In this document: positions 37,672 through 58,429 of the stretch, piece after piece
Layout of the letters: each line of letters begins with the position of its first letter
How positions within the stretch are numbered: position 1 is the first letter of the stretch
Assembly: GCF_020523965.1 (NCBI RefSeq)
Contig: NZ_JAJAPX010000001.1
Coordinates: 992,001-1,056,000 of the forward strand
Direction: 5' to 3'
DNA: 64,000 bases
DNA from: Neotamlana sargassicola
GTDB lineage: Bacteria > Bacteroidota > Bacteroidia > Flavobacteriales > Flavobacteriaceae
Position numbers and translations under genes: made by a program
Notes under the pieces: generated by a model
Databases searched by the model: none
What the model was told of the DNA's origin: nothing
What the model saw: the letters and a program-made list of their open reading frames with translations, nothing else

Positions 37672-39035
37672 TGGCAAAAGTTAAAACTAGTTTTTTTTGT
37701 CAGAGCTGTGGAACGCAATATTCCAAATGGCAAGGGCAATGTAATGCGTGTAAACAATGGAATACCATTGTTGAAGAAGTTATACAAAAACCAGAAAAAA
37801 ACGATTGGAAAACAACGCCTTCAACAAACTTAAAAAAAGCATCTGTTCCATTACGAATTAACGAAATTAATTCGGCTAAAGAAACGCGATTAAACACAAT
37901 AGATAGTGAGTTTAATAGAGTATTAGGTGGAGGGATTGTTCCTGGTTCTGTAATATTATTGGGAGGCGAACCAGGTATTGGTAAAAGTACCTTATTGCTA
38001 CAAATATCATTACAGTTGCCTTATAAAACTTTATATGTTTCTGGTGAAGAAAGCCAAAAACAAATAAAAATGCGTGCCGAACGCATAAAACCCGATAGTG
38101 AAAATTGTTTTGTGTTAACCGAAACCAAAACCCAAAATATTTTTAAGCAAGTTGAAGCCTTACAGCCCGATGTTGTTATAATAGATAGTATACAAACTTT
38201 ACATAGCGATTATATCGAGTCGTCGTCGGGTAGTATTTCGCAAATAAAAGAATGTACTTCAGAGTTAATTAAGTTCGCTAAAGAAACAGCAACACCAGTA
38301 ATTTTAATTGGCCATATTACAAAGGATGGTAATATTGCAGGACCAAAAATTTTAGAGCATATGGTCGATACCGTTTTGCAATTTGAAGGCGACCGTAATC
38401 ATGTATTCAGAATTTTGCGGGCTCACAAAAACCGTTTTGGGTCTACCAACGAAATTGGTATCTACGAAATGCAAGGTAGTGGGTTGCGAGAAGTTACCAA
38501 TCCCTCAGAGATTTTAATTTCAAAAAAAGATGAAGACCTTTCGGGTAATGCCATTGCTGCAACTTTAGAAGGTATGCGACCTTTAATGATAGAAGTACAA
38601 GCACTTGTAAGTACAGCAGTTTATGGTACGCCACAACGTAGTGCCACAGGTTTTAATGCCAAACGTTTAAATATGCTTCTAGCTGTGTTAGAAAAACGTG
38701 CAGGTTTCCGTTTAGGGGCTAAAGATGTATTTTTAAATATTACAGGAGGTATTACGGTTGATGACCCCGCTATCGATTTGGCAGTTGTAGCTTCAATACT
38801 ATCTTCAAACGAAGATGAACCTCTACCAAAAGATGTTTGTTTCGCAGGCGAAGTTGGCTTATCTGGAGAAATTCGTCCTGTGCAACGTGTAGAGCAACGT
38901 ATTTTAGAAGCCGAAAAGTTAGGCTTTTCTACTATTTATGTATCTAAATACAATAAAATCACACTTAAAACTACGGCAATAAAGGTTAATTTACTTTCTA
39001 AAATTGAAGATTTTGTAGTGCAATTAATACAATAA
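37671..39035 (+). CDS. radA: DNA repair protein RadA (Sms)
   Basis: RecA-like branch-migration ATPase for recombination intermediates, 454 residues. N-terminal C4 zinc finger (CQSCGTQYSKWQGQCNAC), Walker A GGEPGIGKSTLL, the RadA-specific KNRFGSTNEIG motif, and a C-terminal Lon-protease-like domain (ITGGITVDDPAIDLAVVASI; CFAGEVGLSGEIRPV). All functional motifs are present. It is last in the run that begins with panC and is coupled to the esterase-like gene by ATGA-type overlap. A 288-base gap then leads to the giant-protein array. Confidence 0.98.
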   Translation: MAKVKTSFFCQSCGTQYSKWQGQCNACKQWNTIVEEVIQKPEKNDWKTTPSTNLKKASVPLRINEINSAKETRLNTIDSEFNRVLGGGIVPGSVILLGGEPGIGKSTLLLQISLQLPYKTLYVSGEESQKQIKMRAERIKPDSENCFVLTETKTQNIFKQVEALQPDVVIIDSIQTLHSDYIESSSGSISQIKECTSELIKFAKETATPVILIGHITKDGNIAGPKILEHMVDTVLQFEGDRNHVFRILRAHKNRFGSTNEIGIYEMQGSGLREVTNPSEILISKKDEDLSGNAIAATLEGMRPLMIEVQALVSTAVYGTPQRSATGFNAKRLNMLLAVLEKRAGFRLGAKDVFLNITGGITVDDPAIDLAVVASILSSNEDEPLPKDVCFAGEVGLSGEIRPVQRVEQRILEAEKLGFSTIYVSKYNKITLKTTAIKVNLLSKIEDFVVQLIQ

Positions 39036-39323: not shown

Positions 39324-42300
39324 ATGACACAAAAGCTACTATTTTGCACCTTTATTGCGTGCCTTATGTTTAATGGATTAGTCTGCCAAACAAATGCGCC
39401 GAGTATACAAACAGGTGTAGATTTTAGGTGGAGCGATACACAAAACGATCGCAGAGATCCTGCGACAATTCAAAGTATTGTTGTAAATAATTTGGTTTAT
39501 GACACATACAATATTCCCTCTAGCTACGAACTAACACAGCTAGGTGTCGATGGTCATGCCGTAAATTCTATTAAAAATAATGGAACTAATATTGAAACAA
39601 CTAGTGCTAGTGCTAGTTGGAACGACTCAGCATTATCTGCATATCAAGATCTAAATTTAAACCATTATTTTATTTCTAACGGAAATGGAGATAATATTTG
39701 CGACGATTTTTCTGCGGCTTCTACAACCACAAATGCTCAAAAGCAAACGTTAACTTATGAGCCTGGTATTACAGCCAGTTCAAGTAGTATTTTGGCTATT
39801 ACAGAGCGTAGTGCTAATAATTGTTATTATGTAGAACTTTTTGGGACACTCTCAGGAAGTACCGTAGTACAATCGCTTGGTAAAACCTTTGTTAATCAAA
39901 CAACAACTGAATGGGGTTTTGGTGGCACTGGTGCAGGTAGTGGTGATATGGGAACACCGGGATCGGTAAATCCGCCATCTACAGGGTCAGATTATTGGTT
40001 AAGCGATCGCGTTACAGAAAATAGAGGAACCATCGGTATTGCTCTTTTTTATTTAGATGACATCGCTCCAATTGGATCGACCATTGCAAATGTGGTGCTA
40101 ACTGGTGCAACCAGCGATCACGGAGATGGCAAGGTTTTTATACTAACAATAAATGATAATGATGAAGATGGCTATAGTGATATTGATGATTTAGATGATG
40201 ATAACGACGGTATTACCGATGTGAATGAAGGGTTATCTTGTGGTTCTAATTATTTAAACTGGGATGGAGCAAGTTTGGGTAGCCCACTTACACAAACAAT
40301 TTTTAATCCTTCTACAGGAAATTTTGTGGATGTAACCTTTGAAGTTTTGGTAGATGACACTTCTCACCCTATTGGCTATACAACCAATACAAGCCCAGCG
40401 ACAAATTTAGGTGATGTTGGAGGCATTAATACAGGAGATAAAATACGTATATCAACTTCAGAACCTATCTCACTAACTATAATGTCATCCAATCGTATTA
40501 CTGGTGCTTCTGGCGTTGATGGTTCTTACGATCAAGATGAGGTTCTTTATACATTTAATGATTCTTATGCCTTTACAGATCCTGATGATATCTTTAGAAC
40601 GGTTTCTCAAACTGCCACAGAATTAAGAATAATTCCAAGAAGAGCTGATGACGGCGTTACAGCAACTCCCGAAAATAGATTTAACTGGTCTATTGTATCT
40701 ACAACAGATTTGTTTGAGCTTGAAGTTTTAAGCGGAAACCCGAGAATGAGTATAAAAATAAGGGTTGATGATTGTAGTTATTTAGATTCAGATAATGATG
40801 GTATCCCAGACCATTTCGATACCGATAGTGATAACGATGGTTGTCCAGATGCATTAGAAGGTTCTGCGCCAAATAGTCAAATTAATCATGACGATTTAAA
40901 CGAATATTACGGAATTACAGGAGGTCAAGATTCCAATGGTGTGCCTTCAGCGGCAAGCGGTGGTCAAGGAGTTGGTAGTAGTATAGATAATACGGTGCAA
41001 ACTGCAGAATGTAATACCTGTGATTCTAGCCACGCTGAATACTACGATACCGATGGCGATGGCATTGGTAATGCCTGTGATTTAGATGACGATAACGATG
41101 GTATTTTAGATAGTGTCGAGGACGATTGTAGTAATAGCAGCATTTTCGAAACTACAGGAAATAATACAAGTAGTGCGTTCGAAACATTACCATACGGAAG
41201 AGTAATTAGTGCAACCGATTTAATTTTAGGTTCTGGAATTAATTTTTATCACCAAAGCACCTCGTTTAGATTTACAGGTGCGGGCGAATCAAATTTAAGC
41301 AATGCCATAACTAATAATGATTATATTGAACAAAGCTTTACAACAGCCTCAACCTTTACAACAAATACCATGAATCTCGATAGATTAAGGTTAAGACATG
41401 GAGGCACAAGCGGCAGTTTAGCATATGGTTATCATATTGGGGTTTTAATTTCCGATGATGATTTTGCGACAAGTACCATTTTAAATGCAGATTTTTATTA
41501 TGAGGACGATTATTCCGTAGGCGAAGATGTTAATATTGCAACTAATATTCAGTTTTCATTAGCTGTAAATACAACTTATAAAATTCGATATTATTTTTAT
41601 GCAGGAAACGAAACTACTGAATATTATATTGATGATATCACAGCTTTCGAATTAGCTTGTAATAACGATAACGATGGTGATGGAGTTGTTAACAGTCAGG
41701 ATACAGATAGCGACAACGATGGTTGTCCCGATGCTATAGAGGCTAATTCTAGCAGTTATTTGTTCAACGATTTAAATTTCGATTATAGCATTAATACCTC
41801 AAGTAATCCTATTGATTCAGATTCCGCAAGTGCCACCTATGGAGCACCCAATGGTTCTAATAATGGCATTGGTATTTCTCAAGATTTTACACAACAGTCC
41901 GATGAGTGTGATAGCTGTAATAGCAATAGCTCTTTATTTATAGACACAGATAATGATGGGATTGGTAACAATTGTGATTTAGACGATGATAACGATGGTA
42001 TTTTAGATACGGTTGAATGTGGTAATTCTGCTAATCTTGGTTTAACAGTTTCAGGAACTATTCCTAATTTTATTTTAACAGACGATTCTTCATCAACAAC
42101 TAGTAATACTGTTACTAGAAATGGTGATATTAACGGAAATGGCACAATAGTAAATAATGAAATTGTACGGTTAACTTGGGCTCCGGTTGAGGGTTCAAGT
42201 GGTTTTACTTTTAGCACAACTCAAACCTTTGATAGCGCTATTTCAGGTGTTAAAATTAAACCTAATAATAGTGTAACCCATGTTTCAGATGTTATAATTT

Positions 42301-45300
42301 GGACTATAACTTGGACAGGAGGAATACCTGGGGCTACAGGAACAGCAATTGATAGTAATCCTAAAAATAATACAGCTTATAATATTTATAATCCATCTTC
42401 AACAGCTTCAAATCCTGTTTTTGCAGGTAGTATTGTTACAAATGGTTACAAATTTGTTTCAGATAATGATGGAGATTTATATGAGGCTAAAAATCCTAAT
42501 CTAGAAGGAACTCAAGATGGTAGTTTCTATAACTATGAAATTAATTTGCCAGATAACATTACTTCGGTAACGGTAACAGGGACAATAGAATTAAATGGTG
42601 ATGAAGGTCCTTATGGTTATTCTGCCGAAGCAATGGATGTTGACTATTCTGAAGCGTATTTTTCGGCTAATTGTGATTTAGATTCGGATAGCGATAGTTA
42701 TCCTAACCATTTAGACCTCGACAGCGACAACGACGGTATTCCAGATAATATAGAAGCTCAACCTACGGTAGGTTATGTATTACCCACCTATGGTTACGAT
42801 TTAGATGGAGTAGATAACAATTACACCGGCGGTTTATTATTAGAAGACACCGACAACGATGGCACGCCCGATTACATAGATTTAGACAGTGATAACGATG
42901 GTACGCCCGATATAGAAGAAAACGGTATGGCTAACGCGGTAAGCGGAACCGATACCGATGGTGATGGTTTAGATGATGCTTTCGAGACCAATGGGGTAAA
43001 CGATTCAAGTTTAGATGTAAACGAGTCGATAGAAGATCCAACAGATTTAAGCATACTACCCGATGCCGATGGCGATGTACTTACCACCGGCGATGTAGAT
43101 TACCGCGACGAATTAACGGTACTTTCAGAGGTAGCGACTATCGATTTTGATGGTGTAGACGATTATTTAGATGGCACACCATTTATAACCAATTGGGACA
43201 ATGGTACCATAATGAGTTGGATAAAAATAGAGCACGATAATGATGGTAACCTACCAAATATGTACAGTATAGCAGGGCAAGAAAGTATGCGATTATACAT
43301 TACTAACGGTCGCACACCAGCGTTTTATGTAATAACCCAAGACCAGGTAACCTCATCGAGTAACTATCCATCATCAAATATAAGTGTACAGCCCGATCCA
43401 TTATTAGGCATCAGCTTAAAGAATGATATGTGGTATCATGTTGCAGGCGTTTTTAATTCTTCAGAAGAAACGGTAAAACTATATTTAAACGGCGAATTAG
43501 TTGGCACCACCTCAAGTGGGTATTTAAACTCCGAATTAATCACACAAAATTATGATGGTACACCACATGTTTACTCCACCCGTGAGTTTACAATAGGCCG
43601 TTACCCAACCAATACAAGTGCCTCAGGATTTGGACATTTTAGAGGTAATATAGACGAGGTACGCGTGTTCGACACCGCCTTAACGGCAGAGCAAATTCAA
43701 CAAATGGTTTACCAAGAGATTGAAAATAATGGGGGAGTAATTCAAGGTAGTATAATTCCAAAAGACGTAGAAGATCATAGCTTAGGAAGTAAAGTATCAT
43801 GGTTAAATTTACAAGGTTACTACCCAATGACCAATATCATTAGTGGCACAACCAGCGATTATTCAAGTACAGGTAATAATTTAACCCTACATAATATAAC
43901 CACGGTACAAGAACAAACCGCGCCTATGCCTTACGAAACAACAGCAGCAGGAGATTGGACTAGTACATCAACATGGCTACATGGCACTGTATGGGATATT
44001 ACAGATGTAACAGATTTAAAAGACTGGAGTATCGTTCATATAAAAGATGATATAGAAATAACCGGCTCACATAGCAGTTTAGGATTATTAATCGATTCAG
44101 GTAAGACCTTAACGGTACATGGAGACCATGAGATAAATAACAGTTGGTATTTTGAGTTAAATGGCGATTTAGATTTAGAAGATGATTCACAATTAGTACA
44201 AGGCATTCGCAGCGATTTGGTAACCTCTTCAACGGGCAAGGTGTTACGTCGTCAAGAAGGGACATCCAATGCCTTTAGGTATAATTATTGGAGTTCTCCG
44301 GTAGGGGCTTTAGGCACCACGCCATTAAGCGATAATAATGCAACAAGTAATAATGCTAATAATAGTGCTTTTAACTTAAACATGTTAAAAGATGCAAGTG
44401 GTAATAATTGGACGTTTGTATCTGGATATACCGGAAGTAATAGTATAAGTACGTATTGGTTGTATACCTACAAAAACGGATTAAAGTATTGGGATTGGGC
44501 GCAAATAGGTCCGTCGTCTAATATAGGTACAGGAGTAGGTTATACACAAAAAGGAACAGGTGTATCAGGAGCGACCCAGCAATATATATTTTCAGGTAAG
44601 CCTAATAACGGTACAATAAAAATAGCTGTAAGCGATAGAGGCGGTTCAGGATCCGTGCCAGATGTTTCAAAGACAGAATATTTAGTAGGTAACCCTTATG
44701 CATCAGCCATAGATATTCACCAATTTATAGAGGATAATCAAGGCGTAATCGATGGCACAGTAAGTGTTTGGCAACAATGGGCAGGAAACTCCCATTATTT
44801 AAGTGAATATGAAGGCGGATATGCTCAAATAAACAAATTAGGAAGTATACGAGCGTATCAATTTGTAGGTATATCAGGCGCGAACAATGGTTCGCAAGAC
44901 GGCACGATAGTACCAACTAGGTACATGCCCGTTGGTCAAGGATTTATGGTAGAAGTAATAGCCGATGGAGAGGTTGAGTTTAATAATGGTCAACGCGTGT
45001 TTATAAAAGAGTCTGATGCCGATGGGAGCGAATATAATGGTTCTGTGTTTTCAAAAAGTAGTGATAGTAAAACGGCACAGGCATCAACAGATGGAATGCA
45101 AAAGTTACGTCTAGCTTTAACATCAGTATCTGGACCCAAAACCAATAGAGAGTTGTTGTTAGGATTTAGCGATTATACAAGCGACGATTATGATTATGGA
45201 TACGATGCGAAGTGTACAGCGACCAACAAGAACGATTTATTGTTAGCATTAAATGGTCAGGGTATGACCATGCAAGCCTATGGAGTAATAAGTGCAGAGA

Positions 45301-45785
45301 AGGAGATTCCGTTGCAGTTTAATTCATCGGGCAACAATAGCTTTAAGATCCAGTTAAGCGAACAAATCAATATACCAGCAGATCAGGCAATATATTTACG
45401 CGATAGTACCACCGATGTGTATTTCGATTTAAGCCAAGGCGAAGCATATAGTTTTACTAGTGCACAAGGGAAGTTTAACGAACGTTTTGCGATAGTATTT
45501 CAGAGTAAAGCAGAGACCTTATCAGTAAACGAATCTCAGAGAGAAGCTAATTTTATGTATTACCAAAATAGCACAAACACGTTTTATGTAAAGAAGTTAA
45601 ACGCCCAAGTAAAGAATTTAGCAGTAATCAATATGCGCGGACAACGCGTTATAGAGCAAGAAAATGTTGAGCAATCACGGTTAGAAAATGGTATCGTGCT
45701 GAGTAATATATCAACAGGAGCCTACGTGATTTGTTTACGCACCGATGCTAATGAAGTACTCACTAAAAAAATAGTTGTGAAATGA
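39324..45785 (+). CDS. Giant T9SS-secreted surface protein A (thrombospondin-3 repeats, LamG, type A tail), 2153 aa
   Basis: Start set at ATG 39324, which opens directly into a signal peptide (MTQKLLFCTFIACLMFNGLV); a TTG 24 bases earlier adds only non-family residues. After a ~250-residue head, the protein carries many Ca-binding thrombospondin type 3 repeats (DxDNDGxxD), at about residues 278, 490, 574, 782, 873 and 1118-1230. Globular beta domains lie between them. From ~1124 to the end it is a module shared with protein C: LamG-like domain (~1268-1465), a segment [12 protein letters not shown], a beta-rich part ending [15 protein letters not shown] (~1650), a region [20 protein letters not shown] (~1940), and a type A T9SS tail (last ~85, [17 protein letters not shown]). 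It is probably a cell-surface adhesin or glycan-binding protein; no catalytic motif was seen. Confidence 0.92.
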   Translation: MTQKLLFCTFIACLMFNGLVCQTNAPSIQTGVDFRWSDTQNDRRDPATIQSIVVNNLVYDTYNIPSSYELTQLGVDGHAVNSIKNNGTNIETTSASASWNDSALSAYQDLNLNHYFISNGNGDNICDDFSAASTTTNAQKQTLTYEPGITASSSSILAITERSANNCYYVELFGTLSGSTVVQSLGKTFVNQTTTEWGFGGTGAGSGDMGTPGSVNPPSTGSDYWLSDRVTENRGTIGIALFYLDDIAPIGSTIANVVLTGATSDHGDGKVFILTINDNDEDGYSDIDDLDDDNDGITDVNEGLSCGSNYLNWDGASLGSPLTQTIFNPSTGNFVDVTFEVLVDDTSHPIGYTTNTSPATNLGDVGGINTGDKIRISTSEPISLTIMSSNRITGASGVDGSYDQDEVLYTFNDSYAFTDPDDIFRTVSQTATELRIIPRRADDGVTATPENRFNWSIVSTTDLFELEVLSGNPRMSIKIRVDDCSYLDSDNDGIPDHFDTDSDNDGCPDALEGSAPNSQINHDDLNEYYGITGGQDSNGVPSAASGGQGVGSSIDNTVQTAECNTCDSSHAEYYDTDGDGIGNACDLDDDNDGILDSVEDDCSNSSIFETTGNNTSSAFETLPYGRVISATDLILGSGINFYHQSTSFRFTGAGESNLSNAITNNDYIEQSFTTASTFTTNTMNLDRLRLRHGGTSGSLAYGYHIGVLISDDDFATSTILNADFYYEDDYSVGEDVNIATNIQFSLAVNTTYKIRYYFYAGNETTEYYIDDITAFELACNNDNDGDGVVNSQDTDSDNDGCPDAIEANSSSYLFNDLNFDYSINTSSNPIDSDSASATYGAPNGSNNGIGISQDFTQQSDECDSCNSNSSLFIDTDNDGIGNNCDLDDDNDGILDTVECGNSANLGLTVSGTIPNFILTDDSSSTTSNTVTRNGDINGNGTIVNNEIVRLTWAPVEGSSGFTFSTTQTFDSAISGVKIKPNNSVTHVSDVIIWTITWTGGIPGATGTAIDSNPKNNTAYNIYNPSSTASNPVFAGSIVTNGYKFVSDNDGDLYEAKNPNLEGTQDGSFYNYEINLPDNITSVTVTGTIELNGDEGPYGYSAEAMDVDYSEAYFSANCDLDSDSDSYPNHLDLDSDNDGIPDNIEAQPTVGYVLPTYGYDLDGVDNNYTGGLLLEDTDNDGTPDYIDLDSDNDGTPDIEENGMANAVSGTDTDGDGLDDAFETNGVNDSSLDVNESIEDPTDLSILPDADGDVLTTGDVDYRDELTVLSEVATIDFDGVDDYLDGTPFITNWDNGTIMSWIKIEHDNDGNLPNMYSIAGQESMRLYITNGRTPAFYVITQDQVTSSSNYPSSNISVQPDPLLGISLKNDMWYHVAGVFNSSEETVKLYLNGELVGTTSSGYLNSELITQNYDGTPHVYSTREFTIGRYPTNTSASGFGHFRGNIDEVRVFDTALTAEQIQQMVYQEIENNGGVIQGSIIPKDVEDHSLGSKVSWLNLQGYYPMTNIISGTTSDYSSTGNNLTLHNITTVQEQTAPMPYETTAAGDWTSTSTWLHGTVWDITDVTDLKDWSIVHIKDDIEITGSHSSLGLLIDSGKTLTVHGDHEINNSWYFELNGDLDLEDDSQLVQGIRSDLVTSSTGKVLRRQEGTSNAFRYNYWSSPVGALGTTPLSDNNATSNNANNSAFNLNMLKDASGNNWTFVSGYTGSNSISTYWLYTYKNGLKYWDWAQIGPSSNIGTGVGYTQKGTGVSGATQQYIFSGKPNNGTIKIAVSDRGGSGSVPDVSKTEYLVGNPYASAIDIHQFIEDNQGVIDGTVSVWQQWAGNSHYLSEYEGGYAQINKLGSIRAYQFVGISGANNGSQDGTIVPTRYMPVGQGFMVEVIADGEVEFNNGQRVFIKESDADGSEYNGSVFSKSSDSKTAQASTDGMQKLRLALTSVSGPKTNRELLLGFSDYTSDDYDYGYDAKCTATNKNDLLLALNGQGMTMQAYGVISAEKEIPLQFNSSGNNSFKIQLSEQINIPADQAIYLRDSTTDVYFDLSQGEAYSFTSAQGKFNERFAIVFQSKAETLSVNESQREANFMYYQNSTNTFYVKKLNAQVKNLAVINMRGQRVIEQENVEQSRLENGIVLSNISTGAYVICLRTDANEVLTKKIVVK
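42690..45785 (+). repeat. C-terminal module copy 1 (near-identical to 52893-55988)
   Basis: About 3.09 kb of coding sequence that matches 52893-55988 base for base with scattered substitutions. The offset stays 10203 throughout, so there is no net insertion or deletion. I count about two dozen residue differences over ~1030. Identity begins near the codons for [15 protein letters not shown] and ends at the stop codon; the 3' flanks differ at once. Confidence 0.95.
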
Positions 45786-46345
45786 TGAAAGACATGTTTA
45801 TAATTGATAAAAATGAACAGTTAAATTTTTATTATTTTACCGAAAATTAAATAACGCGATAACAAGCAATTTAAAACCAATATAAATTTATAATGAAATA
45901 AAGCTTTAATTTAAATACATTTACTTCCCTCGTAAATATTTCTTAATCAAATCCATTCAATTTTAAAGTAGTAGTTATTAGTACAAAATTTATTAGTCCC
46001 AAACTAATTAAAATTTTAACCTATGAATGTAATTTATACTAATTTATGCTACATTGAGCACTTTTATTCAAGTTGTATCCTTTACACAACTTTAATGTTT
46101 TTTATTAAAAAAATAATAAGCAACAATGCATTAAATGATCGTTTTTGTAACTTAATTATTGTACAAGACTATCGTTTTTTCCTCAAAACAGTTATAGTAA
46201 GTTTTCTTTATTTAAAGGCTGTCTTTCATCCCAAAATATAAATCAAAAGATTAGTCTAACTGTTTATTTACCTACATTAAATAGTTAGCCTTCTATTTTA
46301 ATAAACAGAACAAGAGGACTCTAAATAACCCTAAAAAACATTAAA
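45786..46345. other. 560-base gap between giant genes A and B, no credible gene
   Basis: AT-rich. A 72-codon frame at 46023-46241 codes for a Phe/Ile/Cys-rich peptide with no signal or family character and is probably chance. It contains a hairpin at 46256-46288 and a short block (45996-46024) resembling the leader of the gene at 56281. I found no exact TAnnTTTG box. Confidence 0.6.
46256..46288 (+). promoter_or_regulatory. Leader hairpin upstream of giant gene B
   Basis: CTAACTGTTTA (46256-46266) pairs with TAAATAGTTAG (46278-46288) with one G-U pair, giving an 11-bp stem and 11-base loop, 57 bases before the ATG at 46346. No T run follows, so it is not a normal terminator. A leader element or chance AT-rich pairing are both possible. 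Confidence 0.3.
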
Positions 46346-49300
46346 ATGCGCCCCAACAAATTTAATTTTATCCTATTTCTAGCTTTCATTTGTTTTAATG
46401 CTGTAAATGCACAGTTAAGTGATTTGCATTATTTACCGCCTTTAAAACAGGATTCTAATAATGTAGCTATACAGCAACAAACTATTTACCTCTCTACACC
46501 AGTAACTACAGCATTTACTGTTAACGTTTATAGAGGAACAAGTACAACTGCTATAACAAGTTTTTCTCTGTCTAAAGGTACTCCGGTAACCTATAACTTA
46601 GCTAATGGAGATAATAATATTACTTTGGTAACAAATGCTAATACAGGTGTTGTTTTAAATAATTCAGGTTTAAGGTTTGAAGCTCCTTCAGGAGAAAAGT
46701 TTTATGTAAATTATAGAGGCAGATCAGGTTCTCAGGCGGCATCAATAACTTCAAAAGGAAGGGCTGCTTTGGGGCAGAGTTTTAAATGGGGAGGAGCACC
46801 AATTGAAGCAGACCATAGTAGTATGAGTGCTACCTTGGGTATTATGGCAACAGAAGATGATACTGAAGTAACCATTTCTGGATACAATCCTAATTGTGAA
46901 TTTAGATTAGGTACAGATGTTGATGGTATTACAGATAATACAATAACAATTACTTTACAACAAGGAGAGTCTTATGTGTTAGAGGCGGCTAAAGATGGAA
47001 CTACAGCCAATATAGATGGTTGGATTGGCGCTTCAATAGAAGCAGATAAAGATATAGCTATTAGTAATGGTATGTTGAACTTTGGTGTAAACCCTTCAAG
47101 CGCAAGTAGAGATGCAGGTGCAGATCAGCCAGTACCAGAAGATAAATTAGGTAAAGATTATGTTTTTGTAAGGGGGTATGGAGGTAGTTCTAACGAATAT
47201 ATAATTATTATTGGAACTCAAGACAATACAAATGTATATGTTAATGGTAATACAACACCATTTGCAAATATAGATGAAGGTGAATATGCCGAAATTCCGA
47301 GTACATACTTTTCCGGCACTACAGTTGGGCATAATATGTTAGTTACAACATCTAAAGATACTTATGCCTACCAAGTTGTTTCTGGGGATTCAGGTATACA
47401 CACCGTAAGTTTAAATTTTGTTGCACCAGTAAATTGTTTATTGCCGGATGCAATGAATCATATACACAATATCACAGATATTTCGGGAATAACAGCTTCC
47501 GGTGGAGTATTTATTATAGCTTCAACGTATACTCCCGATGCCAATATAACTGTGAAAGATGGTACAGGACCAATTGCCTTACCAGCATCATCGACAGTAG
47601 CTGGTACAACAGACTGGAAAACATTCTATATATCAGGGTTGTCTGGAGATGTTTCTGTAGAATCTTCAGGACCTATCGCTGTTGGTTTTTTAGGGTTTAA
47701 TGGAGCTCGTGGTATTGCAGGATATTTTTCTGGATTCGATACAGTACCAGAAGTAACTCTTCAGGTCTCTGGAGGTGGTTGTTTACCTGGTGCAGATGTT
47801 GAAGTTGTTGGTGAAAGTTTTGACTCATACCAATGGTTTGAAGATGGCGTTTTAATTCCAGGAGCTACAAGCGCTACTTATTCACCAACAACTTCTGCCG
47901 ATTATTATGTTAGAGTGGTAAAAGGAGGATGTACCTATGATTCTCAATCACTTTCCGCATATTATTGTGATCCAGATGTGTTAATAAATAAAACAGTAGA
48001 TAAAAATAAGGTTGTAGAAGGAGAAACCGCTATTTTCACTATCGAAGTTCAAAATTTAGGTGCCAATCCAGTAACTAATTTAACTGTGGTTGATAATATA
48101 CCTTCGGGATTAACTTTAATCAGTTCAAATCCTTCGGTTGGTTCTTGGAGTGGAAGTACTTGGACTATTGGAACTCTAAACAGCGGTGTAAAAGAGACTA
48201 TAGAATTAGAAGTTCAAGCAGATCAAATAAATACGCATAGTGTAACTTTAACAAATACAGCCTACAATAATCAAACAGAAACAGATGCTAACGTAACAAC
48301 AGATAGTCCATCGGCAGATATAACAATTTACAATTATATTAGTGAAGCTTCAATAGATTTTGATGGTGTAGACGATTATTTATCAAGACCAGGTTTTTTA
48401 GAAGGGTTAGATCAAATTACAATTATGGCTTGGGTAAAAACCGATTCTGGAAATAACTCTAATATGGTTGTTGCTGGGGAAGATGAAGGCGTAAAATTAT
48501 GGTTAAAAAATGGAAGAAAACCATCTATTACTATTAATACAAAATATGCCTTAAGCGAAACATCTGTTAGTTGTAGTTGCTCTTTAAATTACGATGAGTG
48601 GCATCATATTGCGGCAACCTATTCGAGATATACAGGCTTAATTAAACTTTATGTTGATGGAGAATTAGAAAAATCAACCTTAAAACTATTGTCATTAACC
48701 GAGATTGAATCTAGCTCAAATGCTAACGGTAGCTTTGAAATTGGTCGTTTATCCAGTAATGCTTCAGATAAAGAATATTTTAAAGGCGATATAGACGAAG
48801 TAAGAGTTTTTAATGTGGCATTAGCCGATTCTCAAATTCAAAAAATGGTGTATCAAGAAATTGAAGATGTTTCGGGTAATGTTTATGGTAAAGCTATACC
48901 AAAGCCTATTACAACTAGTGATGTTTCAGAAACCATATCATGGTCTAACCTTATCGCTTATTATCCAATGACTGATATTGATATTGCTTCAGATGTTGTG
49001 AATGATTTTTCAGAAAGTGGAAATGATTTAAATTTATATAATATTTCAACCATTGTAGAACAAACAGCACCGATGCCTTACGAGTCTGCTAGCGATGGTG
49101 CTTGGGAAATCGAAAGCACTTGGTTACATGGCACTGTATGGGACATTGAAGATGTCGCTAGTAATAAAGATTGGAGCATTGTTAAAATAGCTAGTAATGT
49201 AACAACAACAAATTCACACAATAACTTAGGTTTAATTATTGAAGATGACGTTTCACTTACAGTAAGCGACGAAAACGAAATTAATAATAGTTGGTACTTA

Positions 49301-50950
49301 GAACTAAAAGGTACTTTAGATTTAGAAGATGATTGCCAGCTAATACAAACTTCAACTAGCGATTTGGTAACTTCGGCATTAGGTAAAATTCGTCGTCGCC
49401 AAGAAGGAACTTCAAGTGCATTCTGGTATAACTATTGGGGTTCGCCTGTTGGTACATTAAGTGCTACTAGTTTAACCGATAATAATGCTTCAACAAACAA
49501 CGATAACAATACCCCATTTAACTTAAATATGTTAAAAGATGGTGACGGTAACCCAATGACTTTTACCTCAAGTTATACAGCAAACGGTAATATTAGTACC
49601 TATTGGTTATACACTTATAAAAATGGGTTAACTTATTGGGATTGGAAGAAAATTGGGACATCGTCAAATGTTTCGGCAGGTGTTGGTTATACCCAAAAAG
49701 GAACAGGAATTTCCGAAGATTTTCAAGAATATATTTTTGAAGGTAAACCAAACAACGGTACCGTAGTTTTAAACGTAACAGATAAAGGTGGTTTTGGTTC
49801 TACTTCTGGATCAACAAAAACCGAATATTTAGTAGCGAACCCTTACCCTTCTGCTATCGATATACATGAATTTATCGATGATAACTATGGTGTAATTGCT
49901 GGTTACGTGCAGTTGTGGCAACAATGGGATGGAGCCTCACATAACCTTAACGAGTACGATGGAGGGTATGCTACAGTAACTAAATTAGGTTCTATTAAAG
50001 CTTATCAATTCCAAGGCATTTTAGGTGCAATTTTTGGCGCTGTTCGTGGTACATTAACTCCAACAAGATATGTGCCAGTTGGTCAAGGGTTTATGGTAGA
50101 GGTTGTTTCAGATGGAGAAATAAAGTTTAAAAATAGTCAGCGTGTTTTTATAAAAGAATCGGATAGTAATGGATCATATAATTCTGGATCTATATTTCTT
50201 AAGTCTAATTCAAAAGGCGACGATAAAGACAGTACAAGTAAAAACGAAAGTGATGATGATTTTATGAAAATGAGAATTGAAATTACTTCTATTGCTGGCC
50301 CTGAAACTAATAGAGAATTACTTTTAGGATTTAGTAATACTACTACAGATGCATTCGATTATGGGTACGAGGCAGAGTGCGTAGAGGTTACCAATAACGA
50401 TTTATTGTTAGACTTAGAAGGTGCCGATATGACCATTCAGGCTTACGGAGAAATAACAAGCGACAAAGTTGTAGGTTTAAACTTTAGGTCTTCGGGCAAT
50501 AATAGTTTTGAAATAACGGCAACCGACTTCGAAAGTTTTAACGATGATCAGGAAGTGTATTTACGCGATAATTTAACCAATACTTATTTCGATTTAACCG
50601 GAAACGAAGCTTATAGTTTTACCTCAGAGCAAGGTATTTTTAACGACCGTTTCGAAATAGTATTCCAGAGTAAGAGTCAAACCTTAAGTTCAGAGCAAGC
50701 TCAGTTTGATGCTAATTATATGTATTTCCAAAATACAACTAATATGTTTTATGTTAAAAAGTTTAGTGGCTCTGCTAAAAACTTAGCCGTAATAAACATG
50801 AAAGGTCAACGTATTATGGAACTGGAAAATGTAGATAATTATACGTTAGAAAATGGAATAGATTTAAGTAACATAGCAACAGGAGCCTATGTAGTTTGCT
50901 TACAAACAAGTGCGAATGAGGTGCTTACCAAAAAAATAATAAAAAAATAA
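46346..50950 (+). CDS. Giant T9SS-secreted surface protein B (IgGFc-binding-like head, Ig, DUF11, LamG, type A tail)
   Basis: 1534 residues. Signal peptide ending NAVNAQ. The head (~30-460) resembles the IgGFc_binding domain (YLSTPVTTAFTVNVYRGT; GRAALGQSFKWGGAP; EDDTEVTISGYNP). Next come an Ig-like domain (~470-540, YQWFEDGVLIPGATSATY), a DUF11 repeat (~543-650, INKTVDKNKVVEGETAIFTI), a LamG-like domain (~665-840, [18 protein letters not shown]), and the same C-terminal layout as A and [46 protein letters not shown], type A tail ending TKKIIKK. The C-terminal half is clearly homologous to A and C but much more diverged than they are from each other. It has no thrombospondin repeats. Probable surface adhesin. 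Confidence 0.92.
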   Translation: MRPNKFNFILFLAFICFNAVNAQLSDLHYLPPLKQDSNNVAIQQQTIYLSTPVTTAFTVNVYRGTSTTAITSFSLSKGTPVTYNLANGDNNITLVTNANTGVVLNNSGLRFEAPSGEKFYVNYRGRSGSQAASITSKGRAALGQSFKWGGAPIEADHSSMSATLGIMATEDDTEVTISGYNPNCEFRLGTDVDGITDNTITITLQQGESYVLEAAKDGTTANIDGWIGASIEADKDIAISNGMLNFGVNPSSASRDAGADQPVPEDKLGKDYVFVRGYGGSSNEYIIIIGTQDNTNVYVNGNTTPFANIDEGEYAEIPSTYFSGTTVGHNMLVTTSKDTYAYQVVSGDSGIHTVSLNFVAPVNCLLPDAMNHIHNITDISGITASGGVFIIASTYTPDANITVKDGTGPIALPASSTVAGTTDWKTFYISGLSGDVSVESSGPIAVGFLGFNGARGIAGYFSGFDTVPEVTLQVSGGGCLPGADVEVVGESFDSYQWFEDGVLIPGATSATYSPTTSADYYVRVVKGGCTYDSQSLSAYYCDPDVLINKTVDKNKVVEGETAIFTIEVQNLGANPVTNLTVVDNIPSGLTLISSNPSVGSWSGSTWTIGTLNSGVKETIELEVQADQINTHSVTLTNTAYNNQTETDANVTTDSPSADITIYNYISEASIDFDGVDDYLSRPGFLEGLDQITIMAWVKTDSGNNSNMVVAGEDEGVKLWLKNGRKPSITINTKYALSETSVSCSCSLNYDEWHHIAATYSRYTGLIKLYVDGELEKSTLKLLSLTEIESSSNANGSFEIGRLSSNASDKEYFKGDIDEVRVFNVALADSQIQKMVYQEIEDVSGNVYGKAIPKPITTSDVSETISWSNLIAYYPMTDIDIASDVVNDFSESGNDLNLYNISTIVEQTAPMPYESASDGAWEIESTWLHGTVWDIEDVASNKDWSIVKIASNVTTTNSHNNLGLIIEDDVSLTVSDENEINNSWYLELKGTLDLEDDCQLIQTSTSDLVTSALGKIRRRQEGTSSAFWYNYWGSPVGTLSATSLTDNNASTNNDNNTPFNLNMLKDGDGNPMTFTSSYTANGNISTYWLYTYKNGLTYWDWKKIGTSSNVSAGVGYTQKGTGISEDFQEYIFEGKPNNGTVVLNVTDKGGFGSTSGSTKTEYLVANPYPSAIDIHEFIDDNYGVIAGYVQLWQQWDGASHNLNEYDGGYATVTKLGSIKAYQFQGILGAIFGAVRGTLTPTRYVPVGQGFMVEVVSDGEIKFKNSQRVFIKESDSNGSYNSGSIFLKSNSKGDDKDSTSKNESDDDFMKMRIEITSIAGPETNRELLLGFSNTTTDAFDYGYEAECVEVTNNDLLLDLEGADMTIQAYGEITSDKVVGLNFRSSGNNSFEITATDFESFNDDQEVYLRDNLTNTYFDLTGNEAYSFTSEQGIFNDRFEIVFQSKSQTLSSEQAQFDANYMYFQNTTNMFYVKKFSGSAKNLAVINMKGQRIMELENVDNYTLENGIDLSNIATGAYVVCLQTSANEVLTKKIIKK

Positions 50951-50963
50951 TATAAATGAGATT

Positions 50964-50992
50964 AACTAAACCTCAGTTTTTGGGGTTTAGTT
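50964..50992 (+). terminator. Terminator after giant gene B
   Basis: AACTAAACCTC pairs with GGGGTTTAGTT (11 bp including one G-U, loop AGTTTTT), 13 bases after the stop codon, followed by a short T-rich stretch. Confidence 0.6.
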
Positions 50993-51101
50993 GATTTATT
51001 AAATTATGTAAACATCAAACATTACAGGCTCAATAAGTCGGCTTACATAATTAATTAACAGTTTTATTTGTGCTTAGCTAAAACAAAATAAACTAGAAAC
51101 C

Positions 51102-54100
51102 ATGATTAAAAAGTTAACATTATTCTCAAGTTTGCTATTGCTTTTAAATTTGCCATTTTCTTTGGGAGCGCAATGCGATAGCTGCGATGTTATTGGTCCA
51201 AATAGTGGCAATGTTACATTTTACAGTAATACAACAACTTGCTTTACATCTAATGCAACTTTGGGCGATGTTATATTTCAAAATAATAGTAAGGTTTGTA
51301 TAGCTCCTGGAGTAACTGTAACTATTCAAAATAATTTAAACACAACAAATGGCCATGATATTTCAATTGAAGTACAAGGTTCATTGCATTTTAACCAAAG
51401 CCCAACCTTTAATGCTAATTTTTCATTAAACGTTCAATCTTCTGGGTATATAAAATCCGGAAATTCGGGCAATGGTACTTTTACATTTAATGGTTCTGGA
51501 GTAAATATTTATAAAAATTCTGGAATATCAGAGTTTGGAGTTTTACAGTTTAATAATGCTGCGGCTACTAATAGTATTTATAATTACGGAACATTTAATG
51601 TAACTAATATGAATGTGCAAGGAGCCACAAATTTCATAAATCAAGAAACTTTAAATATTGCATCTAATTTTAGTTTTAGCGCCAATTCTGTATTAACTAA
51701 TTGCGGAACAATTACTGCACAATCTGGGTTTAACTTAAATGGGGGATCTGTAATTAACACCAATACATTTAACGTAGTTGGTGGGGATATAGATTTTGGT
51801 AGTTCAAACTCATCTATGTACAATTATTCAACCATGTATATTGGCGGAAAAATTAACATGGCAGGTACGAGTAATATTTTGTATAACGAAGGTTTGCTTA
51901 CAATTGATGGGAGTATACAAGGAACCATTGGTAAAATTCAAGGGCCTTCAGATAACACAAAACTAGGTTATATAAAATGGGGAACTAAACCAAATGTTGG
52001 ATCTGGTGCCGAAATAGGGCCTAATTTAGACATAGAATATATTGGTGGTTCAACCGGTGCTCAAAAAGCAAATGTTTATTCAACTTTTAATGGTACAGAA
52101 TTAGCAAATGTATCAAAAGCTTGTGAGGTTTATGGAAATTGTTCGGCATCCATGGATACCGTTGGAGGAACGTGTGCAGACCCCGATGCTAATATCGATG
52201 CTTGTTCTAGTGGAACAATAATAGGTACACCAACAGAAAACGATTCTGATGGAGATGGTATAATTAATTCTTGCGATTTAGACGATGATAATGACGGTAT
52301 TCTAGATGTTCTAGAAATGAATACGCCAACCGGATACATTGATTTAGGGCAAACTTTTAGCGATAATACTTCAACATCTGGAGTAATAAATAACGTTTAC
52401 CCTTTTGCATCAAATTTTGCAAATTTTAATTATAGCTTAGAAGGAAGCGCTATATGGGGTTCTGGAGTTAGTTCGGCTACTACAGCTGGAATAACGGGAT
52501 ATTATATGAATTTACAAATTAGAAATTCTGATTTTGTAAATGGAGATTATGGAGTTTATGTTTTTGAGTTTGATGAGCCAGTTTACAATTTAAACTTTAA
52601 AATGGGAGGTTTCGATTTTGAAGATAGAGCAGATTTTGAAGCTACCCTAAATGGAATAAATTCTCCGGTTAATATTACAGATATTAATTTAGGAACAAAT
52701 GGTACATTGTCTAATCAAACGGTTATAGGTTCTTCTACAACTGCCGGTAATGCCCCAGCAAACAGTGTTGAAGTTGCAATAAATGGTCCGATGGATAAAC
52801 TAGTTATTCGAACGGCAAAAAACAATGGAAATGCAAACAATGTGACTTTACAGATTTATGAGTTATCTTATTCTACTGAAATCCAAACAGATTTAGATAG
52901 TTATCCCAATCATTTAGACCTCGACAGCGACAACGACGGTATTCCAGATAATATAGAAGCTCAACCTACGGTAGGATATGTATTACCCACCTATGGTTAC
53001 GATTTAGATGGAGTAGATAACAATTACACCGGCGGTTTAGGATTAGAAGACACTGACAACGATGGCACGCCCGATTACATAGATTTAGACAGTGATAACG
53101 ATGGTACGCCCGATATAGAAGAAAACGGTATGGCTAACGCCGTAAGCGGAACCGATACCGATGGTGATGGTTTAGACGATGCTTTCGAGACCAATGGGGT
53201 AAACGATGTGAGTTTAGATGTAAACGAAGACATCGAAGATCCTACCGATTTAAGCATATTACCCGATGCCGATGGCGATGTACTTACCACCGGCGATGTA
53301 GATTACCGCGACGAATTAACGGTACTTTCTGAGGTAGCGACTATCGATTTTGATGGTGTAGACGATTATTTAGATGGCACACCATTTATAACCAATTGGG
53401 ACAATGGTACCATAATGAGTTGGATAAAAATAGAGCACGATAATGATGGTAACCTACCAAATATGTACAGTATAGCAGGGCAAGAAAGTATGCGATTGTA
53501 CATTACTAACGGTCGCACACCAGCGTTTTATGTAATAACCCAAGACCAAGTAACCTCATCGAGTAACTATCCCTCATCAAATATAAGTGTACAACCCGAT
53601 CCATTATTAGGCATCAGCTTAAAGAATGATATGTGGTATCATGTTGCAGGCGTTTTTAATTCTTCGGAAGAAACGGTAAAAATATATTTAAACGGCGAAT
53701 TAGTCGGAACCACCTCAAGTGGGTATTTAAACTCCGAATTAATCACACAAAATTATGATGGTACACCACACATTTACTCCACCCGTGAGTTTACAATAGG
53801 TCGTTACCCAACCAATACAAGTGCCTCAGGATTTGGACATTTTAGAGGTAATATAGACGAGGTACGCGTGTTCGACACCGCCTTAACGGCAGAGCAAATT
53901 CAACAAATGGTTTACCAAGAGATTGAAAATAATGGGGGAGTAATTCAAGGTAGTATAATTCCAAAAGACGTAGAAGACCATAGCTTAGGAAGTAAAGTAT
54001 CATGGTTAAATTTACAAGGTTACTACCCAATGACCAATATCATTAGTGGCACAACTAGCGATTATTCAAGTACAGGTAATAATTTAACCCTACATAATAT

Positions 54101-55988
54101 AACCACGGTACAAGAACAAACCGCGCCTATGCCTTACGAAACAGCAGCAGCAGGAGATTGGACTAGTACATCAACATGGTTACATGGCACTGTATGGGAT
54201 ATTACAGAAGTAGCAGATTTAAAAGACTGGAGTATCGTTCATATAAAAGATGATACCGAAATAACCGGCTCACATAACAGTTTAGGATTATTAATCGATT
54301 CAGGTAAGACCTTAACGGTACATGGAGACCATGAGATAAATAACAGTTGGTATTTTGAGTTAAATGGTACGTTAGATTTAGAAGATGATTCACAATTAGT
54401 ACAAGGCATTCGTAGCGACTTGGTAACCTCTTCAACGGGCAAGGTGTTACGTCGTCAAGAAGGGACATCCAATGCCTTTAGGTATAATTATTGGAGTTCT
54501 CCAGTAGGGGCTTTAGGCACCACGCCATTAAGCGATAATAATACAACAAGTAATAATGCTAATAATAGTGCTTTTAACTTAAACATGTTAAAAGATGCAA
54601 GCGGTAATAATTGGACGTTTGTATCAGGATATACAGGAAATAATAGTATAAGCACGTATTGGTTGTATACCTACAAAAATGGATTAAAGTATTGGGATTG
54701 GGCGCAAATAGGTCCGTCGTCTAATATAGGGACAGGAGTAGGCTATACACAAAAAGGAACAGGAGTATCAGGAGCGACCCAGCAATATATATTTGAAGGT
54801 AAGCCTAATAACGGTACAATAAAAATAGCAGTAAACGATAGAGGCGGTTCAGGATCCGTGCCAGATGTTTCAAAGACCGAATATTTAGTAGGTAACCCTT
54901 ATGCATCAGCCATAGATATTCACCAATTTATAGAGGATAATCAAGGTGTAATCGATGGCACAGTAAGTGTTTGGCAACAATGGGCAGGAAACTCCCATTA
55001 TTTAAGTGAATATGAAGGCGGATATGCTCAAATAAACAAATTAGGAAGTATACGAGCGTATCAATTTGTAGGTATATCAGGCGCGAACAATGGTTCGCAA
55101 GACGGCACGATAGTACCAACTAGGTACATGCCCGTTGGTCAAGGATTTATGGTAGAAGTAATAGCCGATGGAGAGGTTGAGTTTAATAATGGTCAACGCG
55201 TGTTTATAAAAGAGTCTGATGCCGATGGCAGCGAATATAACGGTTCGGTGTTTTCAAAAAGTAGTGATAGTAAAACGGCACAGGCATCAGCAGGTGGAAT
55301 GCAAAAGTTACGCTTAAGTTTAACATCAGTATCTGGACCCAAAACCAATAGAGAGTTGTTGTTAGGATTTAGCGATTATACCAGCGACGATTATGATTAT
55401 GGATACGATGCGAAGTGCACAGCGACCAACAAGAACGATTTATTGCTAGCATTAAATGGTCAGGGTATGACCATGCAAGCCTATGGAGTAATAAGTGCAG
55501 AGAAGGAGATTCCGTTGCAGTTTAATTCGTCGGGCAACAATAGTTTTAAGATTCAGTTAAGCGAACAAATTAATATACCATCAGATCAGGCAATATATTT
55601 ACGCGATAGTACCACCGATGTGTATTTTGATTTAAGCCAAGGCGAAGCATATAGTTTTACTAGTGAACAAGGGAAATTTAACGAACGTTTTGCGATAGTA
55701 TTCCAGAGTAAAGCAGAGACCTTATCAGTAAATGAATCTCAGGCAGAAGCTAATTTTATGTATTACCAAAATAGCACAAACACGTTTTATGTAAAGAAGT
55801 TAAACGCTCAAGTAAAGAATTTAGCAGTAATCAATATGCGGGGACAACGCGTTATAGAGCAAGAAAATGTTGAGCAATCACGGTTAGAAAATGGTATAGT
55901 GTTAAGTAATATATCAACAGGAGCCTACGTCGTTTGTTTACGCACCGATGCTAATGAAGTACTCACTAAAAAAATTATTGTGAAATAA
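51102..55988 (+). CDS. Giant T9SS-secreted surface protein C (beta-helix-like head, thrombospondin-3 repeats, LamG, type A tail)
   Basis: 1628 residues. Signal peptide ending LPFSLGAQ. The head (~25-340) is an Asn/Ser/Gly-rich run of short strands ([59 protein letters not shown]) that looks like a parallel beta helix. One thrombospondin-3 pair ([20 protein letters not shown], ~385) and a ~190-residue beta domain follow. From ~598 ([15 protein letters not shown]) to the end it is almost the same as protein A from ~1124: more thrombospondin repeats, LamG at ~742, and the type A T9SS tail. Only the head differs, so it may bind a different target with the same anchor and stalk. Confidence 0.92.
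52893..55988 (+). repeat. C-terminal module copy 2 (near-identical to 42690-45785)
   Basis: Second copy of the ~3.09 kb module, 10203 bases downstream of the first, in the same reading frame and orientation. Differences are scattered, with long identical runs (for example around 53340-53500). Such identity between two genes separated by the diverged gene B implies recent conversion or duplication. Confidence 0.95.
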
Positions 55989-56013
55989 GAAATGCAATAA
56001 AAATAGCTTTTAT

Positions 56014-56046
56014 AAAAAGATCAAAATAATTTATTTTGATCTTTTT
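56014..56046 (+). terminator. Terminator after giant gene C
   Basis: Near-perfect 16-bp palindrome AAAAAGATCAAAATAA / TTATTTTGATCTTTTT with one central base, running into T residues, 25 bases after the stop codon. The rest of the gap to 56281 is AT-rich, with nothing else recognisable. Confidence 0.75.
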
Positions 56047-56280
56047 TTATATAATTTATTGGGATTGGAAAGCTTTACGTTATGGATTTTAAAATAACCA
56101 AATTCGATGTTTAATTGGTGCAAACAGATAAATAGATAAAATAAAATGTCAAGCGATTATAAGTTTTATAGCCAGAAAACTGTAACTATTATAGAATAAA
56201 GGATGGGTTATTTAATTTAAATGTTATTTTTATCTCAAGTTTTTAATGTCCCAAGTTAAAATTAACCTATTCAACCAAAA

Positions 56281-57165
56281 TTGTTGGATTTGAAAAAGGA
56301 CTATAATAACATTAAGAAATGTATTGGGATAATATTATTAATCTTATCAATTGCTGCTAATGCTCAATTAAATAATGATATAGGTAGTGTTGAAGCCTAT
56401 CGTATATTAAATGAGCGTTCTAATAAAACAACTTCAAGCGCATCAAGTCCTGTTATTATAAAAACAACCAATTCAGGGTTTAAAAAAATTAGGATAGAAT
56501 TTAATGGAGTTGAAGGTTCGTTTGCAAGTCGTGAGTTGTTATTAGGTTTCAGTGAAAAAACTTCCGATGGTTTTGATTATGGATATGACTCAGAAAGCAC
56601 TTTACATGCCGATGACTTAGGTTTAAATTTAAACGGAAAGAATTATGGTATACAAGCTTACTCCCAATTAACTTCAAAAAAAGTTGTAAAATTAAACCAT
56701 CAAGCGTCTGGAAATCATCGATTTGTAATTAATATTACTGAATTGGAGAATATAGAGGAAGATCAGGATATTTTTTTAATAGATAAAATGAACAATGTGT
56801 ATTTTGATCTATCAAAAGGAGATGGATATGAATTTTATTCTATTAAAGGAATTTTTTCTGATCGTTTTGAAATTGTTTTTCAAGAGGATTCACAAACATT
56901 ACATGCTAATAACGTTAGCTTTACTACAAAAAACATGTATTTACAAAGAAATATAAATACCTTTTTTGCAAAGCAATTAATTAACGGAGCAAGCAAATTA
57001 ACTGTCGTAAATTTACAAGGTCAAAAAATATTGGAGCTATTTAATGTTACTCAGCAAGATTTAGAATCGGGCATATCTTTTAATAATTTTTTAAGCAATA
57101 CTTACGTGGTATTATTACAAACTAAAAGCCACGGCATTCTTACCAAAAAAGTAGTTGTGAAATAA
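56281..57165 (+). CDS. Short T9SS cargo made of the giants' C-terminal module only (paralogue 1)
   Basis: 294 residues. Signal peptide ends SIAANAQ. After ~35 low-complexity residues the protein consists of the segment seen at the C-termini of A, B and [33 protein letters not shown], a beta-rich stretch, then a type A T9SS tail (KLTVVNLQGQKILEL; TKKVVVK). No head, LamG or thrombospondin repeats. No ATG is available; TTG codons at 56281 or 56290 (giving MKKDYNNIKK) are the possible starts. It was probably exported and attached like the giants; its function is unknown. It might be a minimal cargo, a decoy or a recombination donor. Confidence 0.8.
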   Translation: MLDLKKDYNNIKKCIGIILLILSIAANAQLNNDIGSVEAYRILNERSNKTTSSASSPVIIKTTNSGFKKIRIEFNGVEGSFASRELLLGFSEKTSDGFDYGYDSESTLHADDLGLNLNGKNYGIQAYSQLTSKKVVKLNHQASGNHRFVINITELENIEEDQDIFLIDKMNNVYFDLSKGDGYEFYSIKGIFSDRFEIVFQEDSQTLHANNVSFTTKNMYLQRNINTFFAKQLINGASKLTVVNLQGQKILELFNVTQQDLESGISFNNFLSNTYVVLLQTKSHGILTKKVVVK

Positions 57166-57357
57166 GCAGAGTTTTTCTATAATTATTGTGCTAGTATAAT
57201 CAGGAAACAAAATTTATGTAATATTTTTATATTTTATTATTAAAGAAAAATCTTTCAAAAATATGATGAAACGCATATTTTTAAAGATAAAATGCATTAA
57301 AAACAGCTAAAACGACATTTTGTTTCTATTTTCGTTAATTTCTTATGTAATGTTTTT

Positions 57358-57365
57358 TAACTTTG
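57358..57365 (+). promoter_or_regulatory. -7 box for the 57435 gene
   Basis: TAACTTTG, an exact TAnnTTTG, 70 bases before the ATG at 57435. This suggests the second short paralogue has its own promoter. The remainder of the 269-base gap is AT-rich with nothing else seen. Confidence 0.45.
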
Positions 57366-57434
57366 TAAGAGCAAAAGATAGAAGTTGTAATTACACAAAA
57401 TCATCTTTTTTTTACCCCAAAAAACCTACATATT

Positions 57435-58307
57435 ATGAAAAGTTTCTTCTACAAAAATTATAAAATAATTATTCCTGTTTTTTTAATTCAATTATTTTTA
57501 GTTAGCAAAAATTTAAATGCACAATCAAAAAGTGCATTAGGTATTGTAGATGCAGCTAATCAGGAAAACACGGAGCTACCTGTTACCAATATTGTTAGAA
57601 AAACTACAAATTCAGGGTTTAAAAAAATTAGAATTGAATTTAGAGGGTTAGAAGGTGCTTTAATAAGAAGAGAATTGCTTTTAGGATTTAGTGAAGCAAC
57701 TTCAGATGATTACGATTATGGATATGATGCTCCAGTTGTTACAACTTATCAAGACGATTTAAATTTAGATTTAAATGGAACGAATATGAGCATACAAGCA
57801 TATTGTGAACTATCTAGCGATAAATTAGTAAAGTTTAACCATTATTCTTCAGGTGATAATAAATTTTCAATTAAAATAATTGAATTAGAAAATATAGGAG
57901 AAGAACAAGAAATATTTATTAAAGATGGGCAAACAGGAGCACTTTTCGATTTGTCAAAAGGAGAAGCATACGAGTTTATCTCATCTAAAGGTACTTTTAA
58001 AGAGCGTTTTGAAATGACTTTTCAAGAAGAAACATCTACTTTAAGCACCAATGATGTAGCTTACAATGCTAAAAACATGTATTTTCAAAACCCAACTAAT
58101 ACGTTTTATGCTAAACAATTAAAAACTATAGTTAAAAAATTAGTTTTGGTAAACTTACAAGGTCAAAAAGTATTAGAGCTAAAAAATGTATCTCAAGATA
58201 CTTTAGAAGCTGGAATTTCATTAAACAATATGTCGCCTAATACATATGCAATGATTCTTCAAACAGATAATCAAGAGATTTTAACCAAGAAGTTTGTAAT
58301 AAATTAG
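57435..58307 (+). CDS. Short T9SS cargo made of the giants' C-terminal module only (paralogue 2)
   Basis: 290 residues with ATG start and a signal peptide ending NLNAQ. It is closely related to the preceding gene (both have the block KTTNSGFKKIRIEF) and to the ends of the giants ([42 protein letters not shown]). It has a type A T9SS tail (KLVLVNLQGQKVLEL; TKKFVIN). It differs from paralogue 1 throughout, so the pair is older than the A/C duplication. It is probably secreted and surface-linked; no catalytic residues are evident. Confidence 0.85.
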   Translation: MKSFFYKNYKIIIPVFLIQLFLVSKNLNAQSKSALGIVDAANQENTELPVTNIVRKTTNSGFKKIRIEFRGLEGALIRRELLLGFSEATSDDYDYGYDAPVVTTYQDDLNLDLNGTNMSIQAYCELSSDKLVKFNHYSSGDNKFSIKIIELENIGEEQEIFIKDGQTGALFDLSKGEAYEFISSKGTFKERFEMTFQEETSTLSTNDVAYNAKNMYFQNPTNTFYAKQLKTIVKKLVLVNLQGQKVLELKNVSQDTLEAGISLNNMSPNTYAMILQTDNQEILTKKFVIN

Positions 58308-58362: not shown

Positions 58363-58429
58363 TTAATGCTTATAATTTCAGTTTAAATGCTTAAATTCGC
58401 GCATCGAAACGAAAAATGTATAAGTGAGC

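Follow-up and report, generated by a model that had tools for sequence, protein, structure and literature searches.

Large surface adhesins of the SprB type are exported through the T9SS in Bacteroidota. They carry a type B C-terminal domain (CTD) and are usually accompanied by a gene for a cognate PorP/SprF shuttle (PMC12618676). In F. johnsoniae, both the gliding adhesin RemA and its homologue RemZ (Fjoh_0803) are T9SS substrates (PMC10994853, PMC12618676). RemZ has been caught in the SprA-PorV translocon, and its conserved CTD lysine, Lys1110, contacts PorV (PMC10994853), while RemA is found in mobile and immobile foci at the cell surface and is in part released (PMC12618676). The KLIKK proteases of Tannerella forsythia are T9SS proteins that occur in a cluster; their C-terminal domains are near-identical and their N-terminal parts differ (PMC4404884). 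Further, the T9SS surface proteins Kgp, RgpA and HagA of P. gingivalis are diversified through recombination between related domains (PMC5266723).

The array described here shares features with each of these systems. It lies in a stretch of 64,000 nucleotides (the window) of a Tamlana (Flavobacteriaceae) genome, where five consecutive plus-strand open reading frames occupy the gap between radA and ileS. Like the KLIKK proteases, its products are clustered and combine similar C-terminal with differing N-terminal parts; KLIKK proteins, however, share an 86-aa CTD and a 30-residue motif, have protease heads and are described from one species (PMC4404884), whereas no peptidase family was found in the five window proteins or in the 25 families listed for 70 related heads. 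Kgp, RgpA and HagA exchange internal adhesin domains within one species, while the array exchanges N-terminal heads at one syntenic locus in many genera. Unlike SprB-type adhesins, the array proteins end in a type A CTD, and no shuttle gene lies next to the array: TIGR04131, the type B CTD model, matches none of the five, and the flanks are radA and ileS rather than PorP/SprF genes. With RemA and RemZ they share a homologous C-terminal part of ~400 aa, including a RELLLGFS-type module and a type A CTD, although the sequences are distant and the LamG domain of the array proteins lies outside the homology. We consider it likely that the array encodes RemA-type adhesins, exported by SprA/PorV and diversified by recombination.

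The five-gene array claimed in an earlier note on this DNA is present in the ORF list, between radA (37671..39035) and ileS (58424..61828); both genes flank the array in other genera too, and these two genes and all array features given below lie on the plus strand. Gene 1 (39324..45785, 2153 aa, start codon uncertain) combines a signal-peptide-like start and a large head that contains TSP3-type repeats with the constant tail. Gene 2 (46346..50950, 1534 aa) joins a head of IgGFc-binding and DUF11 domains to a constant tail of 867 aa (48347..50947), and gene 3 (51102..55988, 1628 aa) has a different head and a tail near-identical to that of gene 1. Gene 4 (56281..57165, 294 aa, listed with a TTG start, start codon uncertain) and gene 5 (57435..58307, 290 aa) are tail-only, and gene 5 adjoins ileS as it does in other genera. 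A strict Bacteroidota-type promoter pattern (TTG-N17-23-TAnnTTTG) is absent from all six intergenic gaps, and scans of the array for sigma-70-type promoters and terminators gave no more matches than chance. An esterase-like gene (36520-37671) lies upstream of radA and is found at the same place in other genera, in one or more copies.

The last ~230 residues can be aligned in all five proteins, with many invariant columns that include RELLLGFS and D-YGY. In BLAST comparisons, the final 1041 aa (3091 nt) of genes 1 and 3, up to the stop codon, show 97% identity in both protein and nucleotide sequence, the tracts 42693..45783 and 52896..55986 showing 96.9% DNA identity. Gene 2 reaches ~55% identity with both across ~893 aa. 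Genes 4 and 5, which consist of only the final ~230 aa of the tail after a signal-peptide-like start, are 41-48% identical to the large proteins across ~230-250 aa. All these similarities lie far beyond chance, at E-values no higher than 1e-57. The constant tail of the three large proteins, ~870-890 aa long, comprises LamG, a middle region, the RELLLGFS module and a T9SS sorting domain of type A; module and sorting domain together lie at 45063..45782, 50246..50947 and 55281..55985 in genes 1, 2 and 3, respectively. The earlier note had proposed that what the proteins share goes beyond an export tag, and this is borne out; homology is clearly not confined to the TIGR04183 tail and exceeds even the ~250 residues then considered. 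Its type A tails hold for genes 1, 2, 3 and 5, which score above the TIGR04183 cut-off, while gene 4 falls below it (18.4 vs 23 bits).

Pfam recognises LamG_3 in all three large proteins (in gene 1 at 43191..43700, PF13385, 1.1e-15) and also Por_Secre_tail, as well as IgGFc_binding (46745..47695, PF17517, 1.6e-42) and DUF11 in gene 2 and, below cut-off, TSP_3 in gene 1. Neither Pfam nor NCBIfam holds a family for the middle ~400 aa or for the RELLLGFS module. An AlphaFold2 model of the gene 2 tail (mean pLDDT 84.7) consists of a LamG/pentraxin-like domain (Z 22.9 to 4dqa) followed by beta-rich domains. For the RELLLGFS part (residues ~24-170 of model m877b901c3027) there was no clear PDB match; the best Foldseek E-value was 3e-3, and the structural aligner scarcely covered this part.

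Profile searches against PDB sequences connect this tail to RemA and RemZ, the homology taking in the module and some 200-400 aa ahead of it. The module profile matches RemZ at 4.9e-25 and RemA at 1e-23, and the whole-tail profile matches RemZ at 2.5e-38 (profile positions 433-865) and RemA at 6.8e-27 (463-864), with a further, weaker stretch at about 245-375 for both; LamG is outside the matched part, which begins after it. Gene 5 alone matches RemZ (E 8e-10) and RemA (3e-10), and the CTD predicted for it can be superposed on those of RemZ and RemA with Z 9.2 and 9.1 over 73-76 residues at 1.9-2.2 A. All five proteins have TKK near the C-terminus, aligned with the TKK of RemZ. The window proteins most likely belong to the RemA/RemZ-type T9SS adhesins, a known kind. 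The same genome encodes SprA (2734 bits), a PorV family protein (417 bits) and GldM (461 bits), and from these genes together with the homology we infer SprA/PorV as the expected export route. The earlier note knew of no named system; this no longer holds for the tail, which leads into the partly characterised RemA/RemZ family, though neither Pfam nor NCBIfam showed a model for the module, and it seems to stand for the locus. This ties many flavobacterial surface proteins, a large group that had no name, to the RemA family, for which the export route is understood in structural terms.

The nearest relatives of the window are Tamlana, and a module scan of genome contigs yielded 66 loci from many Flavobacteriaceae genera. 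Either or both of radA and ileS are present at 58 of them, the other eight being mostly short contigs or contig ends. Where both flanks were found (52 stretches, mostly picked via the module, so that the counts show position and not frequency), the tail genes lie between radA and ileS in one orientation throughout and number one in 30 stretches, two in 14, three in one and none in seven. In some of these last seven, radA and ileS are directly adjacent, and others hold, for example, an M13 peptidase or a sulfatase gene. A separate draw found the module at E <= 1e-40 in 34 of 299 genomes of the family, and some genomes have strong copies elsewhere as well. Draft assemblies of relatives are often broken at the array repeats. 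The module had no match in plasmids and the tail none in phages, which gives no link to mobile elements. In the literature covered, which includes subscription journals only in part, we found no description of a T9SS locus between radA and ileS or of gene conversion or concerted evolution of T9SS genes in this family; nor is a syntenic array there with tail homogenisation and head exchange described for RemA/RemZ. A syntenic, recombining and head-exchanging locus across many genera thus looks undescribed.

Some arrangements differ from that of the window. The longest array seen, in Mariniflexile sp. AS56 (L059, L068), has at least six consecutive tail genes over ~30 kb of one contig. In two genomes (L186:14046-17000 and L164:6550-9429) the tail genes are separated from ileS by another T9SS protein, which is glucose/sorbosone dehydrogenase-like and has GEVED and a type A tail. 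Tandem, weaker relatives with RemA-type tails occur in another genus of the family, away from any known radA-ileS gap (G491:C1:1924458-1936604 and G400:C27:30037-49388).

The window-tail profile spans its first to last positions in 90 full-length relatives, always at the C-terminus, and in most of them a TSP3-like acidic linker precedes LamG. Every full-length member examined has the constant tail, while the heads range from 198 to 1473 aa. Pfam searches of 70 heads returned GEVED (16), DUF11, fn3, L-type lectin, IgGFc_binding, F5/8 type C, CBM_21, SprB and Ig-like domains, and many heads had no match. Single linkage groups the heads into 17 clusters, a rough lower bound; leftover repeat sequence has probably swollen the largest (48 heads), and certain co-clustered heads, such as those of window gene 3 and L067, do not match each other directly.

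That the heads are exchangeable, as the earlier note had supposed, is supported by incongruence between heads and tails of different species. The tail of gene 2 is 85% identical to that of T. sedimentorum (L054), whose head shows no similarity, while its head is 89% identical to that of T. laminarinivorans (L040), with which it shares 63% identity in the tail; the switch point lies close to the start of LamG. Hyunsoonleella flava (L067) and A. marinivivus (L070) have heads of 96% and tails of 54% identity, and there are further such cases. Between Algibacter (L071) and Hyunsoonleella (L083), the head is 91% identical across 1173 aa and about 90% at the nucleotide level, compared with 78.5% for ileS and ~60% for the tails, which points to acquisition of this head by horizontal transfer.

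Sliding comparisons of neighbouring genes reveal sharply bounded tracts of near-identity, which extend to four-fold sites. Such a tract covers ~500 aa in L067 and the greater part of the tail in L080. In L083 and L051 it has diverged sequence on both sides, a pattern that gene conversion would leave. In L183, a one-contig genome, the tail copies are close to 100% identical in nucleotides throughout and contain the longest identical run of all. In eight genomes, including that of the window, the longest identical runs of polymorphic sites measure 54-2151 sites, compared with a maximum of 31 in 400 between-genome pairs; the test is too liberal (12 of the 400 controls reach p <= 0.0025), and only runs beyond all controls were counted. 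The window pair gave p = 0.029, a result of near-identity along the whole of its tail. The dS is 0.10 between the tails of genes 1 and 3 and 0.87 between the gene 2 tails of the window and T. sedimentorum. We note that for L183 and for window genes 1 and 3 a recent duplication with a later change of head would look the same. Of 67 module copies, just 25 have their nearest counterpart within the same genome; tail homogenisation is therefore recurrent but not general, and on this count we rejected universal concerted evolution.

We can thus outline how such an array might work. Each protein has a predicted Sec-type signal peptide, and the CTD would direct it to the outer surface by way of SprA and PorV. 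In the large proteins a variable head is followed by a TSP3-like acidic linker and the tail of LamG, middle region, module and type A CTD, and this tail would hold the head off the cell. Where a head can be recognised, it is mostly similar to domains for ligand binding, glycan binding or Ig-like adhesion. The radA-ileS gap is a conserved site for such genes, arranged head-to-tail, where long shared tails could allow homologous recombination to homogenise the tails of neighbouring copies. The same recombination could place a new head, sometimes from another genus, onto a resident tail near the TSP3/LamG junction. Export, anchoring, adhesion, recombination as the generator of variation and the role of the tail-only proteins are all steps that we infer from sequence. 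The more ambitious reading, in which radA-ileS is a dedicated adhesin-diversification locus of Flavobacteriaceae with cross-genus head cassettes, RemA-type tails, gene conversion and tail-only partners at the surface, is one that we hold tentatively. Since the locus is fixed and easily amplified, head exchange between species can be measured, and if these proteins are adhesins, close strains are predicted to differ in adhesion targets through a swap at one locus.

Other explanations account for parts of these data. Plain tandem duplication and divergence, with tails alike from recency and constraint and heads evolving fast without exchange, would fit the tandem same-strand layout and the tail dN/dS of about 0.1. 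It is nevertheless improbable, as near-identity includes four-fold sites and has diverged sequence on both sides in L083 and L051, and as heads of 89-96% identity sit on tails of 54-63%, with an 85% tail under an unrelated head. Proteins with a type A CTD may also be enzymes or released, and the array could supply, instead of adhesins, secreted proteins that capture or degrade glycans so that algal polysaccharides can be used, its tail being a carbohydrate-binding and export scaffold. The LamG/pentraxin-like fold, the lectin, CBM_21 and F5/8C heads and several host names suggestive of algal polysaccharide users agree with this; yet neither glycoside hydrolases nor lyases are among the 25 listed families of the 70 heads, and no polysaccharide-utilisation genes were recognised among the identified array neighbours, so that we regard it as unlikely.

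A system of silent cassettes, with one expressed gene and the others, tail-only genes included, as donors, would make use of homologous tails and tail-only members. We rejected it as very improbable: all five window genes have their own signal-peptide-like N-terminus and intergenic space, purifying selection acts on the tail-only genes (dN/dS 0.20-0.26), and heads cannot come from tail-only donors. A polymorphic toxin locus would likewise fuse a constant part to exchangeable effector domains, but here the exchangeable part is N-terminal and adhesin-like, the C-terminus is the constant CTD, no toxin families were seen in the window proteins or related heads, and no immunity-like ORF of at least 100 aa lies between the array genes; this reading is scarcely credible. 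The expanding family of surface proteins envisaged in the earlier note is supported, as far as predicted surface proteins are concerned.

The tail-only genes are conserved genes kept as proteins rather than debris, given their dN/dS and the counterparts of gene 5 that other genomes of Tamlana, Flaviramulus and Algibacter carry next to ileS. They are held by selection, and their products are probably either small secreted proteins that partner the large tails or surface proteins in their own right, although this role is a guess. In distant copies of this layout, away from radA-ileS, tail-only proteins of ~290-305 aa adjoin giants with RemA-type tails (2492 and 3469 aa) at G171:C1:2812790-2815735 and 3679988-3681757. 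In a contig apparently from T. sedimentorum (G003:C1:247-874), a module copy with several in-frame stops, a decaying array member, lies beside an intact tail-only gene.
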